A stretch of 64,000 bases of DNA from NCBI RefSeq assembly GCF_030433675.1, contig NZ_JAROCB010000002.1, positions 744,001 to 808,000 of the forward strand, in the 5' to 3' direction. Of the stretch, positions 45,599-54,205 are shown one piece after another. The stretch comes from Leifsonia virtsii. GTDB lineage: Bacteria > Actinomycetota > Actinomycetes > Actinomycetales > Microbacteriaceae. The position numbers and the translations under genes were made by a program. The first letter of the stretch is position 1. Each line of letters starts with the position of its first letter. The notes beneath the pieces are model-generated. The model ran no database searches and was not told the origin of the DNA. It saw only the letters and a program-made list of their open reading frames with translations.

Positions 45599-46192
45599 GT
45601 GCTCTCGATTGTGGTGCTGATCTCCGGCGGTGGCTCCAACCTGCGCGCTCTGCTGGAGGCGTCGGAGGACGCCGAGTTCCCGGCGCGCGTCGTCGCCGTC
45701 GGTGCTGACCGCGAGGCGGACGGGTTCGAGCATGCCGAGCGGTTCGGCATCCCGACATTCACCGTGCCGTTCACGTCGTACGCGAGCCGGGAGGAGTGGG
45801 GCGACGCCCTGCTGGAGCAGATCCGGCAGTGGGAGCCCGACCTCACCATTCTGTCCGGGTTCATGCGACTGGTGCCCCCGCGTGTCGTCGAGGCGCTCTC
45901 CCCGAACCTCATCAACACGCACCCCGCCTACCTGCCGGAGTTCCCCGGGGCCCACGCGGTGCGGGATGCGATCGCGGCGGGCGTGACCCAGACCGGCGCG
46001 AGCCTCATCGTCGTCGACAACGGAGTGGACGCGGGCCCGATCATCAGCCAGGAGCGCGTGGAGGTGCTGCCCGGCGACACCGAGGCCGCCCTGCACGAGC
46101 GCATTAAACCCGTGGAGCGACGGCTGCTCATCGACGCCGTGCTCGACATCGCCAACGGACACATCGACCTCGAGGAGCTTGCCAGAGCATGA
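45599..46192 (+). CDS. purN: Phosphoribosylglycinamide formyltransferase
   Basis: Third step of purine synthesis, using 10-formyltetrahydrofolate. The start [18 protein letters not shown] binds the substrate phosphate; the catalytic Asn106 and His108 are in [18 protein letters not shown] and Asp144 in [11 protein letters not shown]. At 197 aa the length is normal. The stop overlaps the purH start (ATGA), so the two are translationally coupled and supply IMP to guaB. Confidence 0.95.
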
Positions 46193-47769
46193 GCGGACCC
46201 CGCCACGACGCCAGCCTGTACCGCGAACGGGACCTCGTTCCCGTCCGCCGCGCCCTGATCTCGGTCAGCGACAAGACCGGGCTGCTCGACCTGGCCGCTG
46301 CTCTCGCAGCCGCCGGCGTCGAGATGGTCTCGACCGGCTCGACCGCGCAGACGATCCGGGATGCGGGCCACGAGGTGACCGACGTCGCCAGCGTGACCGG
46401 GTTCCCGGAGTCGCTCGACGGCCGCGTCAAGACGCTGCACCCGGCCATCCACTCCGGTCTCCTCGCCGACCTGCGGCTCGCCTCGCACGAGGAGCAGCTG
46501 AAGGATCTGGGCATCGATCCGTTCGAGCTCGTGGTCGTGAACCTGTACCCGTTCGTCGAGACCGTCGCCTCCGGTGCGGTCGGCAACGACGTCGTCGAGC
46601 AGATCGACATCGGCGGCCCGGCGATGGTCCGCGCGTCGGCGAAGAACCACGCGAACGTCGCGATCGTGGTCTCGCCCGACGACTACTCCGCCGTGATCGA
46701 GGCCGTCGCCGCGGGCGGCACGACCTTCGACCAGCGGCGCGAGCTCGCCTCCAAGGCCTTCGCGCACACCGCCGCCTACGACGGCGCTGTGGCGGCCTGG
46801 TTCGCGGGGCAGGCGCCCTCGACCGACGATTTCCCTGAGCGCTGGGAGGCCCGCGCCGAGCTCAAGCAGACGCTGCGCTACGGCGAGAACTCGCACCAGG
46901 CCGCGGCCCTCTACGCCGACCCGGCCGGACGCGGCATCGCCCAGGCGACCCAGCTCGGCGGCAAGGAGATGTCGTACAACAACTACGTCGACGCCGACGC
47001 GGCGCTGCGCAGCGCGTACGACTTCGACCAGCCGGCCGTCGCCATCATCAAGCACGCCAACCCGTGCGGCATCGCGGTCGCAAACGACATCGCCGAGGCT
47101 CACCGCAAGGCGCACGAGTGCGACCCGGTCTCGGCGTACGGCGGCGTCATCGCGGCCAACCGCACGGTGACCCTCGCCATGGCCGAGACGGTCAAGGGCA
47201 TCTTCACCGAGGTGCTCATCGCTCCGGCGTACGAGCCCGAGGCGCTGGAGCTTCTGCAGACCAAGAAGAACCTGCGCATCCTGCAGCTGCCGGAGGACTA
47301 CGCGCGTGCGCTCACCGAGTTCCGGCAGATCTCCGGTGGCGTGCTCGTGCAGGACAGCGACCGGTTCGACGGCTTCACCTCCGCCGGATGGACGCTCGTC
47401 GCCGGCGAGGAGGCCGACGCGGCGACCCGCGCCGACCTCGAGTTCGCCTGGAAGGCGTGCCGCGCGGTCAAGTCGAACGCCATCCTGCTCGCCCACGACG
47501 GCGCCTCCGTCGGCGTCGGCATGGGCCAGGTCAACCGCGTCGACTCCTGCAACCTGGCGGTCAGCCGGGCGGGCGACCGTGCCCGCGGGTCGGTGGCGGC
47601 CTCCGACGCGTTCTTCCCCTTCGCGGACGGCCCGCAGATCCTGATCGACGCCGGCGTGCGGGCGATCGTGCAGCCGGGCGGCAGCATCCGCGACGAGGAG
47701 GTCGTCGAGGCGGCCAAGGCGGCCGGTGTGACGATGTACTTCACGGGGGAGCGGCACTTCTTCCACTGA
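46189..47769 (+). CDS. purH: Bifunctional AICAR transformylase/IMP cyclohydrolase
   Basis: Last two steps to IMP. The N-terminal MGS-like cyclohydrolase domain has [17 protein letters not shown] and [13 protein letters not shown]. The C-terminal transformylase domain has [13 protein letters not shown], the catalytic KHANPCGIA and [10 protein letters not shown]. It ends in [10 protein letters not shown], the usual PurH end. The length of 526 aa is normal. Confidence 0.97.
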
Positions 47770-47870: not shown

Positions 47871-48926
47871 ATGTCCGTCCTGCCTGCCGACCTGCCGCAC
47901 GAAACACTGCACGTGGTGAAGGGGAGGCGGAGCGGCCTCACCATCAGCATCGCGGTCCACTCCACCGTCCTCGGTCCCGCCCTCGGCGGCTGCCGGGTCT
48001 GGACGTACGACTCCTGGCAGGAGGCCGTGGCCGACTCGCTGCGCCTGGCCGAGGGCATGACGATGAAGAACGCGGCCGCGGGGCTCAACCGCGGCGGCGG
48101 CAAGGCGGTCGTCTACGTGCCGCGCGGCACGACCCTGACCCCGACCGAACGCTACGAGGCCATGCTCGACCTCGGCGACGCCGTCGAGACGCTCGGGGGC
48201 AGCTACATGACCGCCGAAGACGTGGGCACGAGCGCCGAGGACATGTCGGTCGTCGCCACGCGGACCGCGCACGTGTGCGGGCTCCCGCCGTCGGAGGGCG
48301 GCGTGGGCGAGCCGAGCGACGCGACCGCGGCCGGCGTCTACGCGGGGCTGCAGTCGACCCTCGAGCGGGTCTTCGGCAGCCGCTCCGTGGCCGGCCGGCA
48401 CGTGATCGTGCTGGGGCTCGGGCACGTCGGCTCGCTGATCGCGATGCGGCTGGCGAGCGAGGGCGCCGTGCTGACGGTCACCGACGTGAACCCCGCGAAG
48501 CGCGCGCTCGCCGAGGCGATCGGCGCCACCTGGGTCGAGCCCGAGGTGGCGCACCGGGTCGAGGGCGACGTGTTCGTCCCGGCCGGCGTCGGGGGCGTGC
48601 TCACCGAGCGCGTCATCGACGAGCTGCGCGTGCGCGCGGTCGTCGGGCCGGCCAACAACCAGCTGGCGGAGCGCCCGGGGGCGGAGCGGCTGGCCGCCCG
48701 TGGCATCCTGTGGGCTCCGGACTTCGTGGTCAACGCAGGCGGGGTCATCTTCCTCTCGATGGCCGGGGAGCCCGGGGTGACCGCCGAGGCGACGCAGGAG
48801 CGGGTCGAGCGCATCGGCGACACGGTGTCAGAGATCTTCCGGGTCGCGGCCGAGCGCGGCGTCACGACGCTGGAGGCAGCGGAGGAGCTGGCGCTCGGCC
48901 GGCTGCGGGAGCCAGCGAACGCATAG
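47871..48926 (+). CDS. Glu/Leu/Phe/Val dehydrogenase family amino-acid dehydrogenase
   Basis: 351 aa NAD(P)-dependent oxidative deaminase. GMTMKNAAAGLNRGGGKAVV carries the substrate and catalytic lysines (K66, K78), and VIVLGLGHVGSLIAMRLASEG is the Rossmann motif. Length and the first domain fit leucine/valine dehydrogenases rather than hexameric glutamate dehydrogenase; the exact amino acid is not certain. Start ATG 47871 has CGAGGAGA upstream. The upstream open frame overlaps purH and is not coding. Confidence 0.85.
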   Translation: MSVLPADLPHETLHVVKGRRSGLTISIAVHSTVLGPALGGCRVWTYDSWQEAVADSLRLAEGMTMKNAAAGLNRGGGKAVVYVPRGTTLTPTERYEAMLDLGDAVETLGGSYMTAEDVGTSAEDMSVVATRTAHVCGLPPSEGGVGEPSDATAAGVYAGLQSTLERVFGSRSVAGRHVIVLGLGHVGSLIAMRLASEGAVLTVTDVNPAKRALAEAIGATWVEPEVAHRVEGDVFVPAGVGGVLTERVIDELRVRAVVGPANNQLAERPGAERLAARGILWAPDFVVNAGGVIFLSMAGEPGVTAEATQERVERIGDTVSEIFRVAAERGVTTLEAAEELALGRLREPANA

Positions 48927-48937
48927 CAGCGCTCCGC

Positions 48938-48950
48938 TAGGTTGGATGCC
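48938..48950 (+). promoter_or_regulatory. Leaderless promoter of the dimethylargininase fusion (-10 TAGGTT)
   Basis: TAGGTT (48938-48943) is 7 nt before ATG 48951. Confidence 0.6.
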
Positions 48951-50150
48951 ATGACGTCTTCCTGGGGCCGTAGGCTCGCCGCATCCATCTCCGCCGCTGT
49001 CGCCGTCGCCGCGATCGCGTTCGTCGCCTCGACGTTCGTGATCCTGGTGGCGAGCCAGCTGAACTCGGCGGCGCTCGCCACCACGACGCCGTACGTGGGA
49101 TGGAACACACTCGTCGCGCTGGTGCTCGGCTTCGGCGCGGGTCTCCTCGGTGGCTTCGAGCGGCGCTGGATCGCCGTGGTCACCGGCATCGTGCTCGCCC
49201 TGGTGAGCACGCTGCTCGGCACGCTGATCCTGTTCACGGTGCTCAAGGTCAACCTCTCCGGCGAGGCGTGGGGCCAGCTGTTCCAGTCGTTCGTCGGCAT
49301 CAACCTGCCGTTCTGGCTGGCGGTCGCGATCGCGTTCCCGACCGCCGGCTACGCGGTGTTCCGCGCGATCGAGGGCGGGGAGCGCACCGAGCGCCGCATC
49401 GCGCTCGTGCGCATCCCCGCCGCCAACCTCGCCGAGGGCCTCGTCACCCACATCGACCGCGAGCCGGTGGATGCGGAGCTCGCCGACAAGCAGTGGGACG
49501 CCTACGTCGCCGCGCTGTCCGAGGCCGGCTGGCAGACCGTCGAGGTGGCGAGCGCCGACCGCATGGCCGACTCCGTGTTCGTCGAGGACACGGCCGTGGT
49601 CCTCGGCGACGTCGCCGTCGTCACCCGTCCGGGCGCCGAGTCGCGGCAGAACGAGCCGGAGGGAACCGAGGCCGCGCTGCGCGCGCAGGGCCTGCACCTG
49701 GAGCGGATCGTCGCGCCGGGCACGCTCGAGGGCGGCGACGTCCTCAAGGTCGGCTCGACCGTGTACGTCGGCCGCGGAGGCCGGACGAACGCCGAGGGGA
49801 TCCGCCAGCTGCGCGCCATCGCCGGCCCGCTCGGCTACTCGGTCGTCGCCGTGCCGGTGACCAAGGCGCTGCACCTGAAGACCGCCGTGACCGCCCTGCC
49901 CGACGGCACCGTCATCGGGTACGAGCCCATCGTGGACGACCCGCGCATCTTCGAGCGCTTCCTCCCGGTGCCCGAGGCGCACGGCACCGCAGTCGTGGTG
50001 CTCTCCGAGGACACCGTGCTGATGTCGTCCTCCGCGCCGCAGTCGGTCGCCCTGGTCGAGGACCTCGGCTACACGGTCGTCCAGGTCGACATCTCGGAGT
50101 TCGAGAAGCTCGAGGGCTGCGTGACCTGCCTCTCCATCCGCATCCGCTGA
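48951..50150 (+). CDS. Membrane-anchored dimethylargininase (DDAH) fusion
   Basis: 399 aa in two parts. Residues 1-140 hold about four hydrophobic helices (about 9-35, 51-68, 73-98, 118-138). Residues about 148-399 are a complete DDAH-type guanidino hydrolase of the pentein fold, which turns dimethylarginine into citrulline and dimethylamine. Visible catalytic elements are SVFVEDTAVV, His308 in ALHLKTAVTA and Cys393 in EGCVTCLSIRIR. Most DDAHs are soluble and about 250-280 aa, so the membrane part is unusual. A soluble arginine deiminase-like role on another guanidino compound is possible. A 66-bp repeat follows the stop. Confidence 0.85.
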   Translation: MTSSWGRRLAASISAAVAVAAIAFVASTFVILVASQLNSAALATTTPYVGWNTLVALVLGFGAGLLGGFERRWIAVVTGIVLALVSTLLGTLILFTVLKVNLSGEAWGQLFQSFVGINLPFWLAVAIAFPTAGYAVFRAIEGGERTERRIALVRIPAANLAEGLVTHIDREPVDAELADKQWDAYVAALSEAGWQTVEVASADRMADSVFVEDTAVVLGDVAVVTRPGAESRQNEPEGTEAALRAQGLHLERIVAPGTLEGGDVLKVGSTVYVGRGGRTNAEGIRQLRAIAGPLGYSVVAVPVTKALHLKTAVTALPDGTVIGYEPIVDDPRIFERFLPVPEAHGTAVVVLSEDTVLMSSSAPQSVALVEDLGYTVVQVDISEFEKLEGCVTCLSIRIR

Positions 50151-50170
50151 CGCGGGCGGGCCGCCGCCGC

Positions 50171-50236
50171 GACTGCGTGCGTGCGGAACCACTGCGACGG
50201 GTCGACCCGCCGCAGTCGTTCCAGACGACCGCATTC
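50171..50236. repeat. 66-bp palindromic element, copy C
   Basis: Same 14-38-14 layout as the other copies: ends GACTGCG and CGCATTC, core from GGAAC (50185) to GTTCC (ending 50222). Outer arms are more diverged here, but the inner part contains a self-complementary ACTGCG...CGCAGT around GGGTCGACCC. It ends 10 bp before the exporter's -35 box. Confidence 0.8.
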
Positions 50237-50249
50237 AAGAAAACTCTTG
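50236..50249. promoter_or_regulatory. Small inverted repeat over the exporter -35 region
   Basis: CAAGA-AAAC-TCTTG; its right half overlaps the -35 TTGCTA. Short, so a regulator site is only possible. Confidence 0.3.
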
Positions 50250-50276
50250 CTAACTCCCTCAGCCTGGCAATATGCT
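50247..50276 (+). promoter_or_regulatory. Promoter of the ABC exporter operon
   Basis: TTGCTA (50247-50252) and TATGCT (50271-50276) with an 18-bp spacer. Transcription should begin near 50283, which leaves a leader of about 280 nt before the first exporter gene. Confidence 0.72.
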
Positions 50277-50282
50277 GTAGGG

Positions 50283-50561
50283 CTGCCTTGTCGCGGCACT
50301 GAGGACGCATACATCGAGGCTGGGAGGACGCCATGACGACGATCGAGACCGCACGAAAGACCACCGTGCCCGGGTCCGTCGCCGCCCTTGTGGCCGGCGC
50401 CCGACCGTACGGGCGGTAGGTCACCCGCCCCGCGCGCCGTTCCCGCGCGCACCCGCACCCTCTCTCACAGGGTCTGCCACCGCCGGCAGGCCTTCGGCGA
50501 CTCCTCCGCGCGGTCGCCGCCGACCCACGACGTCGGACCACTCACAGAAAACGGAATCTCC
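50283..50561 (+). promoter_or_regulatory. Leader with possible attenuator hairpins upstream of the ABC exporter
   Basis: This stretch lacks a long gene. It holds a 28-codon ORF (50333-50419) and then a run of hairpins. H1 pairs GGGCGG (50411-50416) with CCGCCC (50425-50430) and spans the ORF's stop. H2 pairs 50431-50436 with 50444-50449. H3 is ACCCT/AGGGT (50457-50461, 50469-50473). H4 CTGCC/GGCAG (50474-50478, 50485-50489) competes with H5 CGCCG/CGGCG (50481-50485, 50495-50499). H6 is CCGAC/GTCGG (50520-50524, 50532-50536). Alternative stems behind a short ORF suggest attenuation. Confidence 0.5.
50333..50419 (+). CDS. 28-aa leader peptide upstream of ABC exporter
   Basis: ATG 50333 has a strong ribosome site (GGGAGGA at 50322-50328, 4 nt gap), better than that of the exporter gene itself. 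The peptide starts [10 protein letters not shown] and ends GARPYGR before TAG. It has no domain or signal. Its size, strong initiation site, Arg/Pro-rich end and the hairpin over its stop codon fit a regulatory leader peptide whose translation controls the exporter genes. It is too short for routine gene callers. Confidence 0.6.
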
Positions 50562-52394
50562 ATGTCTGTCGCCACGGCACAGAAGAACACCACGAAGAAG
50601 CGGTCGAGCACCGTCCGCACCCTGCTGCGCATCCTGCCGTTCGCCAAGTCCGCCGCGCCCCGTATCGTGCTCGGGATGGTCGCCGCGCTGCTCGCCAGCC
50701 TGGTCGCCCTGAGCATCCCGCAGGTGCTGCGCTGGCTGGTCGACGGCCCGCTCTCGACCGGTGACCCCAGCGCCGTCTGGCCGGCCGCCCTGCTCGTCGT
50801 CGGGCTGGGCGCGGCGGAGGCCGTGTTCATCTCGCTTCGGCGCTGGTTCGTGCTCACCCCGGGCACCCACGTCGAGGCGCGGATGCGCAACGCGCTCTAC
50901 GCGCAACTGCAGGACCTGCCCGTCGCCTTCCACGACCGCTGGCCGAGCGGCCAGCTGCTGTCGCGCGCCGTCAGCGACCTCAGCCTGATCCGCCGCTGGC
51001 TGTCCTTCGGCATCGTGCTGCTGGTGGTCAATGTGGTCACGATCGTGGTCGGCTTCGCCATCCTGATCGGCTGGAACTGGATCCTCGGGCTCATCTTCCT
51101 GGTGTGCTCGGTGCCGCTGTGGATCTACGGCTTCGTCTTCGAGAACAAATACTCGGTCGTCGCCCGTCGCAGCCAGGACCAGGCGGGCGACCTCGCCACG
51201 GCCGTGGAGGAGTCGGTGCACGGCATCCGCGTGCTCAAGGCGTTCGGCCGCGGCAAGCACGCCCTGAAGAGCTTCGAGTCGCAGGCGGAGCAGCTCCGCG
51301 GCACCGAGATCGAGAAGGCCAAGGCGATCGCGGGCATCTGGCTGTGGCTGCTGCTGGTGCCGGACATCGCGTTCGCGATCTCCCTCGTCGTCGGCGTCTG
51401 GCTCTCGTCGCAGGGTCAGCTGTCGGTGGGCGAGCTGGTCGCGTTCTTCGCGACGGCCACCGTTCTGCGGTTCCCGATCGAGTCGATCGGCTTCCTGCTC
51501 TCGATGACGTTCGACACCCGCACCGCGGCCGACCGCTTCTTCGAGGTGATGGACGAGACCAACGCGATCACCGATCCCGCCGACCCGAAGACGATCGAGG
51601 AGCCTCGCGGCGAGCTCGTCTTCGACGACGTGCACTTCCGCTACCAGGACTCGCCGGAGCGCTTCCCCGACCTGCTCGACGGCGTGCGCCTGACGGTGAA
51701 GCCGGGGGAGACGATGGCCCTGGTGGGCCTGACCGGCTCCGGCAAGTCGACCCTGACCGCCCTCACCACGCGTCTGTACGACGTGACCGGAGGCGCGGTG
51801 AAGGTCGACGGCGTCGACGTGCGCGACCTCACGCGCTACGACCTGCGCAAGGCGATCGCCATGGCGTTCGAGGACGCGACCCTGTTCTCGGCGTCCGTGC
51901 GCGACAACGTCCTGCTCGGCCGCGACGGTCTCGACCCGGTGTCGGCGGAGGCGGAGCGAGTGCTCACCGAGGCGCTCGAAATCGCCCAGGCGGGCTTCGT
52001 CTACGACCTGCCCGAGGGCGTCGAGACGAAGGTCGGCGAGGAGGGGCTCAGCCTCTCCGGCGGCCAGCGGCAGCGCCTCGCGCTGGCGCGGGCGGTGGCG
52101 GCGAACCCGAGCATCCTGGTGCTCGACGACCCGCTGTCGGCGCTCGACGTGGACACGGAGGCGCTGGTCGAGGCCGCCCTCCGTCGGGTGCTCGCCTCCA
52201 CCACCGCGCTGATCGTCGCGCACCGGCCGTCCACGGTCATGCTCGCCGACCGGGTCGCGCTGCTGGAGGACGGCCGCATCACCGCGGTCGGCACCCACAG
52301 CGAGCTGCTCGCCACCAGCGAGCACTACCGCTTCGTCATCTCCAGCCTGGAGGACGAACAGAACGAGGAGATCCTGGAGGAGGTGAACCTGTGA
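50562..52394 (+). CDS. ABC exporter half-transporter, degenerate-site subunit
   Basis: 610 aa: six-helix membrane domain (about 25-330) and an ATPase domain (about 355-600). Walker A is GLTGSGKST (389-397) and the signature LSGGQRQR is intact (498-505). The Walker B reads [11 protein letters not shown], so the catalytic Glu is Asp523, and the Q-loop Gln is Glu437 ([10 protein letters not shown]). Such losses mark the non-consensus half of heterodimeric exporters of the LmrCD/BmrCD type. The partner overlaps by 4 nt. The substrate is not known; drug or lipid export is the usual role. Start ATG 50562 has no strong ribosome site. Confidence 0.9.
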
Positions 52395-54205
52395 GCACGA
52401 CGACAGTGCTGGGCGTCGAAGGCGAGGAGCGCAACGACCTCAGCAAGGAGGAGAGCAGGCAGATCCGCACGCGTTCGCTGCGGCTGCTCGGTTCGCTGCT
52501 GCACCCGCTGCGGTCGCGGCTGCTGCTGACCGCGGTGGTGGTCGTGGTGAGCACGGCCGCCCAGGTGGCCGGACCCGCGATCATCGCCTTCGGCATCGAC
52601 AACGGGCTGCCGGCCCTGCTGAAGCAGAACTGGTTCCCGCTGGCCGCCGCGGGCGTCGCGTACCTGGTCACCGGCGTCATCGGCGCCGGCCTGATCGCCT
52701 GGTACACCGTGCTGAGCGCACGGATCAGCCAGGCCATCCTGATCGACCTGCGCAAGCGCGTGTTCCTGCACACGCAGAAGCTCTCGCTGGAGTTCCACGA
52801 GTCGTACACGTCCGGCCGCATCATCTCGCGCCAGACCAGCGACCTCGACTCCATCCGCGAGCTGCTCGACTCGGGCATCAACCAGCTGGTGCAGGGCGTG
52901 CTGTACATGCTGTTCATCGCGATCGCGCTGTTCTCGATCGACTGGGCGAGCGGTGTGGTGCTGGTGTGCTCGCTGGTGCCGCTGTACCTGTTGACCCGCT
53001 GGTTCCAGAAGCGCTCGCAGAGGCTGTTCCGCATCTCGCGGGTGGCGTCGGCGAAGCTGATCGTGCACTTCGTGGAGACCATGACCGGCATCCGCGCGGT
53101 CAAGGCGTTCCGCAAGGAGAAGCGCAACGAGAAGGAGTTCGGCGGACTGGTCGAGGACTACCGGGATGTGAACGCCCGCGTCATCCAGCTGTTCGGGATC
53201 TTCGACCCCGGCCTGGTGATGATCGGCAACGTCGCGGTCGGCGTCGTGCTGCTCGTCGGCGGCTTCCGGGTCGCCGACGGCCAGCTCGCGATCGGCGTGC
53301 TGCTGGCGGTGCTGCTGTACACCCGCCGCTTCTTCGACCCGATCGAGGAGATGGCGATGTTCTACAACTCCTACCAGTCGGCCGCGGCCGCCCTGGAGAA
53401 GATCTCCGGAGTGCTGGAGGAGGAGCCGAGCGTCCCCGACCCGGTGAAGCCGGTCGACCTGTGGGAGGCGCAGGGCCACGTCCACTTCGACGGGGTCACC
53501 TTCGCGTACAAGCAGGATCGCGTGATCCTGCCGGAGTTCACGCTCGACATCCCGGCGGGACAGACCGTCGCGCTGGTGGGCTCCACGGGTGCGGGCAAGT
53601 CGACCCTGGCCAAGCTGATCTCGCGGTTCTACGACCCCAGCGAGGGCTCGGTGACGCTGGACGGCGTGGATCTGCGCGATCTGCACCCGAAGGACCTGCG
53701 CCGAGCGATCGTCATGGTGACGCAGGAGGCGTACCTGTTCAGCGGCTCGGTCGCCGACAACATCGCGCTCGGCAAGCCGGACGCGACGCGCGAGGAGATC
53801 GTGCGGGCGGCCGAGGCGGTGGGCGCCCACGAGTTCATCGAGGGCCTCCCCAACGGCTACGACACCGACGTCAACAAGCGCGGCGGCCGGGTCTCGGCGG
53901 GTCAGCGGCAGCTGATCTCGTTCGCCCGGGCGTTCCTCGCCGACCCGTCGGTGCTCATCCTGGACGAGGCCACCAGCTCGCTCGACATCCCGAGCGAGCG
54001 CCTGGTGCAGGAGGCGCTGCAGACGCTGCTCGCCGACCGCACCGCCGTCATCATCGCGCACCGCCTGTCGACCGTCGCCATCGCGGACCGCGTGCTGGTG
54101 ATGGAGCACGGCCGCGTGGTGGAGGACGGCACGCCGGACGACCTGATCGCCGGCACCGGCCGCTTCGCCCAGCTGCACGCGGCCTGGCGCGACTCGCTCG
54201 TATAG
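52391..54205 (+). CDS. ABC exporter half-transporter, consensus-site subunit
   Basis: 604 aa: six-helix membrane domain (about 30-330) and ATPase domain. Walker [10 protein letters not shown] (397-405), Walker [13 protein letters not shown] with the catalytic Glu526, Q-loop [12 protein letters not shown] and H-loop AHRLST are all canonical. The signature is changed to VSAGQRQ (501-507) instead of LSGGQ. In a heterodimer this altered signature would face the partner's degenerate Walker B, leaving one full ATP site. GTG 52391 overlaps the upstream stop, so the two subunits are made together. Confidence 0.9.

Follow-up and report, generated by a model that had tools for sequence, protein, structure and literature searches.

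What governs the two-gene ABC exporter of Leifsonia virtsii, and what part, if any, does the short open reading frame ahead of it play? An earlier note on this DNA, made from the letters alone, had described a promoter, a leader ORF with a strong ribosome site and several hairpins upstream of the exporter, and had proposed that ribosomes stalling near the RPYGR end of the leader peptide alter the folding downstream and thereby turn the exporter on. We followed this proposal by comparative and folding analyses centered on the window, that is, the whole 64,000-nt stretch of contig NZ_JAROCB010000002.1 (positions 744,001 to 808,000 of the forward strand); all positions given here and in Table 1 count from its first letter.

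The two exporter genes form an operon and encode ABC half-transporters of the permease-plus-ATPase type. Heterodimeric ABC exporters commonly combine one degenerate with one standard ATP site. Because the two subunits display one site of each kind and their genes overlap by 4 nt, we infer that they assemble into a heterodimer. The models that score against them include MsbA, SmdA/SmdB and Tet(46)-type exporters, none of the best 25 models per subunit reaching its curated cut-off, and subunit 1 resembles the solved exporters Sav1866 and TM_0288. The host genome comprises 4.2 Mb, and the nearest named relative of the exporter is found in Leifsonia sp. C5G2 (99% identity). In four related loci (L146, L177, L183, L230) the gene next upstream of the exporter shares its C-terminal ending with the window ORF at 46189-47769, which in the window is separated from the exporter by two extra ORFs (about 48000-50150); the neighborhood has thus been rearranged.

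Table 1. Features of the exporter locus in the window.
Feature	Position	Strand	Details
402-aa ORF	48942-50150		upstream neighbor of the leader
Promoter	50247..50285	+	TTGCTA 50247-50252, 18-nt spacer, TATGCT 50271-50276
Conserved block	50271-50285	+	TATGCTGTAGGGCTG, extending beyond the -10; family conservation
Leader-ORF Shine-Dalgarno	50322..50328	+	GGGAGGA; GGAGGA the same in all 27 aligned genus leaders
Leader ORF	50333..50419	+	28 codons; conserved among relatives
Thr-rich segment	50336..50368	+	residues 2-12; sole peptide feature kept family-wide
Stop-codon hairpin	50411..50430	+	GGGCGG/CCGCCC; varied stems, common TAG loop within the genus
C-rich untranslated spacer	50420..50561	+	C 47.9%, G 25.4%; separates leader ORF from exporter
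H4, extended	50471..50492	+	GGTCTGCC/GGCAGGCC, 8 bp; 66/72 cells paired
H5	50481..50499	+	alternative to H4 and H6; 52/54 cells paired; predicted probability 0.00
H6	50495..50519	+	stem CGGCGA/TCGCCG, CTCCTCC (50501-50507) in loop; invariant
ABC exporter subunit 1	50562..52394	+	610 aa; ATG at 50562; Walker B with Asp instead of Glu
ABC exporter subunit 2	52391..54205	+	604 aa; GTG start; Walker B; 4-nt overlap with subunit 1

For the comparison, 190 regions upstream of orthologous exporters were collected (80 named loci, two further sets of 29 and 80, and the window), of which 165 were kept after removal of 25 identical or short ones; this sample represents part of the matches in the full family. 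The promoter was present as the earlier note had described it, and its conservation across Microbacteriaceae places it beyond chance; a strict sigma-70 consensus scan did not list it. Its core TANNYTGNARGGYTG occurs in 99 of the 165 upstream regions versus none of the 165 reverse strands, and the genome of the window contains a single match. In 80 genomes of the family there are 62 matches, 41 of them at most 700 nt upstream of the exporter and on its strand. Because the 21 matches elsewhere are about as numerous as those of a backward control pattern (20), the promoter block, judged by these counts, is specific to the exporter gene. Just past the -10, within 50271-50285, the segment GTAGGGCTG equals the -10 in its family-wide constancy; we found no pairing partner or regulator that would account for it.

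The leader ORF stands out from chance just as clearly. An ATG-initiated ORF of 12-70 codons behind a Shine-Dalgarno (SD) sequence is found in 138 of the 165 upstream regions; the reverse strands yield 52, and shuffled regions 45.6 on average. For ORFs with a stronger SD the corresponding numbers are 107, 17 and 13.1. All 75 strict-motif leaders of at least 190 nt contain such an ORF (6.2 expected from shuffles), in each case starting no more than 130 nt after the motif ends, and none of the 28 strict-motif leaders of at most 151 nt does. These counts bear out the leader ORF of the earlier note, which is present with its strong ribosome site, selectively kept and part of the exporter's regulatory region; as far as conservation can tell, the leader ORF is real and kept across much of Microbacteriaceae, and it is probably translated. 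When 96 exporters (79 rows with the ORF, 16 short, one with neither) are placed on a quickly built maximum-likelihood tree, the ORF label requires 6 changes versus 15.0 in shuffles, and at least four of these changes are forced by well-supported branches. Because the ORF state switches at least four times, leader ORF and long spacer are, on this phylogeny, a removable module that is retained or lost jointly; having been lost several times, the ORF is dispensable. Examples of short leaders are three Herbiconiux rows as well as Cryobacterium/Terrimesophilobacter-like rows.

Within the window's genus, all 28 genomes carry the exporter, and 27 of them the motif together with an ORF of 27-31 codons, the exception being L218, which was excluded from alignment A2 on account of its broken exporter. 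L218 and L219 are small genomes (2.6-2.7 Mb), both with a broken exporter; L219 retains promoter motif and leader ORF, and L218 has neither. Of 50 exporters matched in other families, 20 were looked at, and these carry neither the promoter motif nor a similar ORF; five of the 20 (L237, L238, L239, L241, L246) have some SD-ATG ORF with an unrelated peptide, two of which are Lys/Ser-rich stretches resembling gene ends. L002, an 82% match elsewhere in the genome that might have been another leader copy, sits in a sugar-type ABC permease region and was dismissed as a chance match.

If ribosomes sense something on this ORF, the question is where along it they do so. Apart from the window, the RPYGR ending is confined to L003/L195, a near-identical relative represented by one shared ORF sequence: The sister species end in RPSGR, most other members of the genus in SPEPAPAW or similar, and other genera in unrelated residues. 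Conserved C-terminal residues, the criterion for a nascent-chain arrest peptide, are absent among the leader ORFs compared, and pN/pS amounts to 1.74 (9 ORFs), 1.68 (5) and 0.43 (4) in three clades of the Leifsonia group, small samples throughout. The divergence of the C-termini across genera, together with these values, led us to reject RPYGR as an arrest motif, and the stalling at a conserved RPYGR end that the earlier note had suggested is not supported.

What is kept is the beginning of the peptide. In 80 clustered ORFs (from 120, after 18 had been dropped as upstream-gene tails or antisense), threonine makes up 26.9% of residues 2-12; its share is 10.7% in 62 gene N-termini and 6.0% over the remainder of the ORFs. 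Of the 80 peptides, 42 have Thr at position 2 and 44 have it at position 4; serine is not enriched in this segment, and 35 of the 80 peptides have two or fewer Thr there. All four Thr codons are used, ACA reaching 24% versus 8% in 56 gene N-termini; likewise, GCA accounts for 33% of the Ala codons versus 9% in gene N-termini, and the start of the ORF contains 25.4% A versus 18.4% in genes. According to the accessible part of one account, chloramphenicol and linezolid arrest ribosomes best with a penultimate Ala and less well with Ser or Thr (PMC8987054), for which reason an Ala/Thr-rich start would suit an early-arrest sensor. Equally, these Thr and A-ending codons might do no more than prevent structure at the start and so favor strong initiation.

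We then have to ask what a ribosome on the ORF might change in the RNA. The hairpin across the stop codon reported in the earlier note exists and is a feature of the genus, where stems of differing sequence (GGGCGG/CCGCCC, GCCTGG/CCAGGC, CCGGG/CCCGG) surround the stop; it does not exceed chance in the GC-rich window, where 28% of shuffles equal or beat it, and it does not extend to the family, in which 44 of 130 ORFs show such a hairpin versus 34-41 of 130 at shifted positions (8 ORFs dropped as upstream-gene tails or antisense). We discarded it as a family feature; because the stretch is GC-rich, single hairpins say little in general. Furthermore, RNAalifold paired the 5' block GGGCTGCC with GGTAGGTC of the stop region in 27 genus leaders, a pairing that proves nothing since both sides are almost invariant; GGGCTGCC is also conserved in genera whose stop regions differ. 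The SD of the leader ORF is predicted to be mostly paired in the 27 genus leaders (mean unpaired 0.20 versus 0.40 overall), with its best predicted partner 102-120 nt beyond the ORF in 12 of them. Across the family, pairing between SD and spacer is no better than in shuffles (mean z -0.01; window z +1.84), and it was abandoned as a family feature, leaving a hint within the genus.

Further downstream, H4 contains two pairs with compensatory changes in nine close relatives (among the alignments of genus leaders, A3 comprises nine and A4 14), both separating the same four rows. As 115 of 200 column-permuted controls also yield at least one compensated pair in some helix, this covariation supports H4 modestly. 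H5 shows no covariation in the nine relatives; H6 is paired in 54 of 54 cells in them, and its stem, being invariant, provides no covariation evidence. The alignment of relatives that the earlier note had recommended thus gave a divided answer: The ORF is kept and H4 has its two compensated pairs, but the C-terminal codons diverge and H5 lacks covariation. In part of the genus, another hairpin lies between stop codon and H6, whose arms vary yet remain complementary (CCCGGGC/GCCCGGG, CAGGGC/GCCCTG, CGGGGC/GTCCCG). No RNA structure conserved family-wide was found. The leader has no Rfam match at gathering score; the CTCCTCC in the loop of H6 resembles an anti-Shine-Dalgarno sequence, and a match to the CCUCCUCCC-motif sRNA CcsR1, far below threshold, covers this stretch.

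Ribosomes were then placed on the leader in silico, which gives equilibrium predictions that ignore co-transcriptional folding. In all nine relatives and all four ribosome states, H4 has a predicted probability of 0.76-1.00 and H5 of 0.00: The mutual exclusion of the two hairpins claimed in the earlier note holds in so far as they overlap and their complementarity is kept, but switching between them is not predicted, as H4 wins in every state. With a modelled ribosome at codon 4, at codon 8 or at the stop, the exporter's ribosome site and the local hairpins stay nearly unchanged in 21 of 23 genus leaders, local pairing shifting in the other two (L209, L211). H6 of the window is predicted at 1.0 in all states, and the predicted folding of the window is ribosome-independent; in L084, L198, L199 and L201, H6 rises from 0.02-0.14 with the ribosome at the stop to 0.62-0.98 with it at codon 4. 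The ribosome site of the exporter is predicted to be fairly open (0.35-0.69 unpaired in the 23 genus leaders, similarly in all modelled states).

Taken as a whole, the spacers of 78 leaders fold more stably than their shuffles (mean z -1.02, sem 0.17), with a genus mean of -1.5 (28 leaders) and a value of -1.92 for the window, calculated from 20 nt before the end of the ORF to 15 nt before the exporter. C exceeds G more than 1.5-fold in 58 of 78 spacers and in 7 of 24 short leaders (those of the 28 that are 60 nt or longer); the first part of the exporter gene shows the same excess in 46 of 78 cases, and C-richness is thus not specific to the spacer. The longest T run is at most 4 in 76 of 78 spacers, a strict scan detected no intrinsic terminator on the + strand of 50100-50700, and a search of the spacers for conserved k-mers returned nothing strong outside Leifsonia-like genera. 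Because a U-tract terminator is missing and the exporter's ribosome site appears open, Rho-dependent termination in the spacer is, by elimination, the best fit; it is possible and, frankly, a guess, and it meets the difficulty that an early-stalled ribosome would not obviously shield the spacer.

On balance, we consider with moderate confidence that a cis-acting, translation-sensing leader module tunes the two-subunit multidrug-type ABC exporter. A dedicated SigA-type promoter would produce an RNA with about 280 nt ahead of the exporter, on which the short ORF would be translated from its strong ribosome site. The progress of the ribosome, most likely across the first dozen Thr- and Ala-rich codons, would reflect how well translation is going; ribosomes that slow down or stall would alter events in the C-rich structured spacer, conceivably Rho-dependent termination as the output step, and hampered translation, for instance by an antibiotic, would let more transcripts reach the exporter. 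Translation of the ORF, its sensing and the direction of the response are what we infer here. More specifically, and only tentatively, the leader may be a sequence-tolerant sensor of translation stress used throughout the family, in which residues 2-12 form a Thr/Ala-rich window of rare codons and the remaining peptide drifts: Drugs acting on the peptidyl transferase or a scarcity of charged tRNA would slow the ribosome within this window, and bacteria without WhiB7 would thereby link translation stress directly to the exporter, with no intrinsic terminator involved.

Several other explanations compete with a translation-sensing module. The ORF might not sense anything and instead load ribosomes at the 5' end, thus protecting or stabilizing the mRNA for constitutive expression, as its strong SD, its A-enriched start and a peptide free of purifying selection in two of the three clades would allow; we regard this as unlikely, because ORF and long spacer persist or disappear as a pair (75/75, 0/28), Thr is enriched far beyond other A-rich codons while Ser is not, and the spacers are more structured than shuffles. 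Control at the leader's own SD, in which the distal CTCCTCC/CCTCTC would pair with the SD and a ribosome on the first codons would free H6 or local stems, agrees with the mostly paired SD and its distal partner in 12 of 27 genus leaders as well as with the ribosome-dependent H6 of the four relatives; the constant H6 of the window and the chance-level SD pairing across the family nevertheless render it quite improbable. The classical attenuator, in which stalling at the RPYGR end toggles H4 and H5 and hence termination and read-through, can invoke two mutually exclusive hairpins whose complementarities are kept in nine close relatives and the compensated pairs of H4. It is very unlikely in view of the unconserved ending, the missing U-tract terminator, the predicted dominance of H4 in every modelled state and the different hairpins that other clades of the genus carry at the position of H4 and H5. 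The earlier note had accordingly found the right object and a hairpin pair whose complementarity persists in close relatives, but it named the wrong trigger, and the pair is not predicted to switch.

A Thr-tRNA attenuator would have low levels of charged tRNA-Thr stall the ribosome in the Thr-rich start, to which the Thr content of residues 2-12 (27%) would be suited, and amino-acid starvation, too, is said to act on the whiB7 leader (PMC12121999, in its accessible part). We attach very little probability to it, as the target is an exporter and not Thr metabolism and many of the peptides (35/80) are poor in Thr at the decisive positions. Scarcely any weight can be given to transcriptional activation of the WhiB7/WblC type with the ORF being incidental: A PF02467 search of the window genome alone found two Wbl proteins (L220, L221), neither of them with the RGRP AT-hook, which we take to be the mark of WhiB7, and WhiB7 control is unlikely in this genome. 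What speaks for such activation is that 88 clustered promoters are enriched in A at 5-9 nt upstream of the -35 TTG and that the window has, 2 nt before TTGCTA, a GAAAAC that resembles the GAAAWY box described at 3 nt in the accessible part of PMC7157823.

How, then, does a translation-sensing leader of this kind relate to known systems? Chloramphenicol-responsive cat/cmlA leaders sense within their first codons, carry Thr/Ser near the start and act by translational attenuation of a masked ribosome site. The present leader, a candidate known from its letters, would share with them early sensing and the Thr-containing start, but not the masked site.

The closest layout is that of bmrB-bmrCD in B. 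subtilis, where, as far as the accessible text tells, drug-induced read-through requires that a 53-codon leader ORF, in which the terminator lies, be translated (PMC4191407). In both systems, a short ORF with a ribosome site and rare codons precedes a two-gene multidrug ABC exporter, here assigned by sequence similarity; bmrB, however, has its intrinsic terminator within the coding region of 53 codons (PMC4191407, accessible part), whereas the present leader ORF has 28 codons followed by about 140 nt of C-rich spacer with no U-tract terminator. Since the search for an intrinsic terminator failed, we do not file the leader as a bmrB-type member. The actinobacterial whiB7/wblC leader likewise contains a uORF thought to sense translation stress broadly, but uses a Rho-independent terminator and controls a regulator, not the exporter directly (accessible parts of PMC10727445 and PMC12121999). 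For toiL-topAI of Escherichia coli, the accessible part of PMC12121999 describes a uORF that may sense several inhibitors and a link to Rho; toiL, in contrast, occludes the downstream ribosome site by pairing with it, which here is predicted to be open (0.35-0.69 unpaired), and masking of the exporter's site was not predicted in any modelled ribosome state. A search judged by titles, with subscription papers outside its scope, found no published account of an exporter leader ORF in Microbacteriaceae.

If the translation-sensing reading is true, the Microbacteriaceae, bacteria of soil, plants and water, would share an undescribed control of a core exporter that reads ribosome performance, and a drifting peptide with a conserved Thr-rich start would represent a testable case of leader sensing via composition instead of an arrest motif. 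Nature has removed ORF and spacer several times while leaving the promoter in place, which offers ready-made comparisons. Three of the short leaders without an ORF (L058, L064, L145) share a block of their own, GGGGGAATCAGCGCGC...GTGTCACGAGCAC, which is perhaps a different regulatory element.
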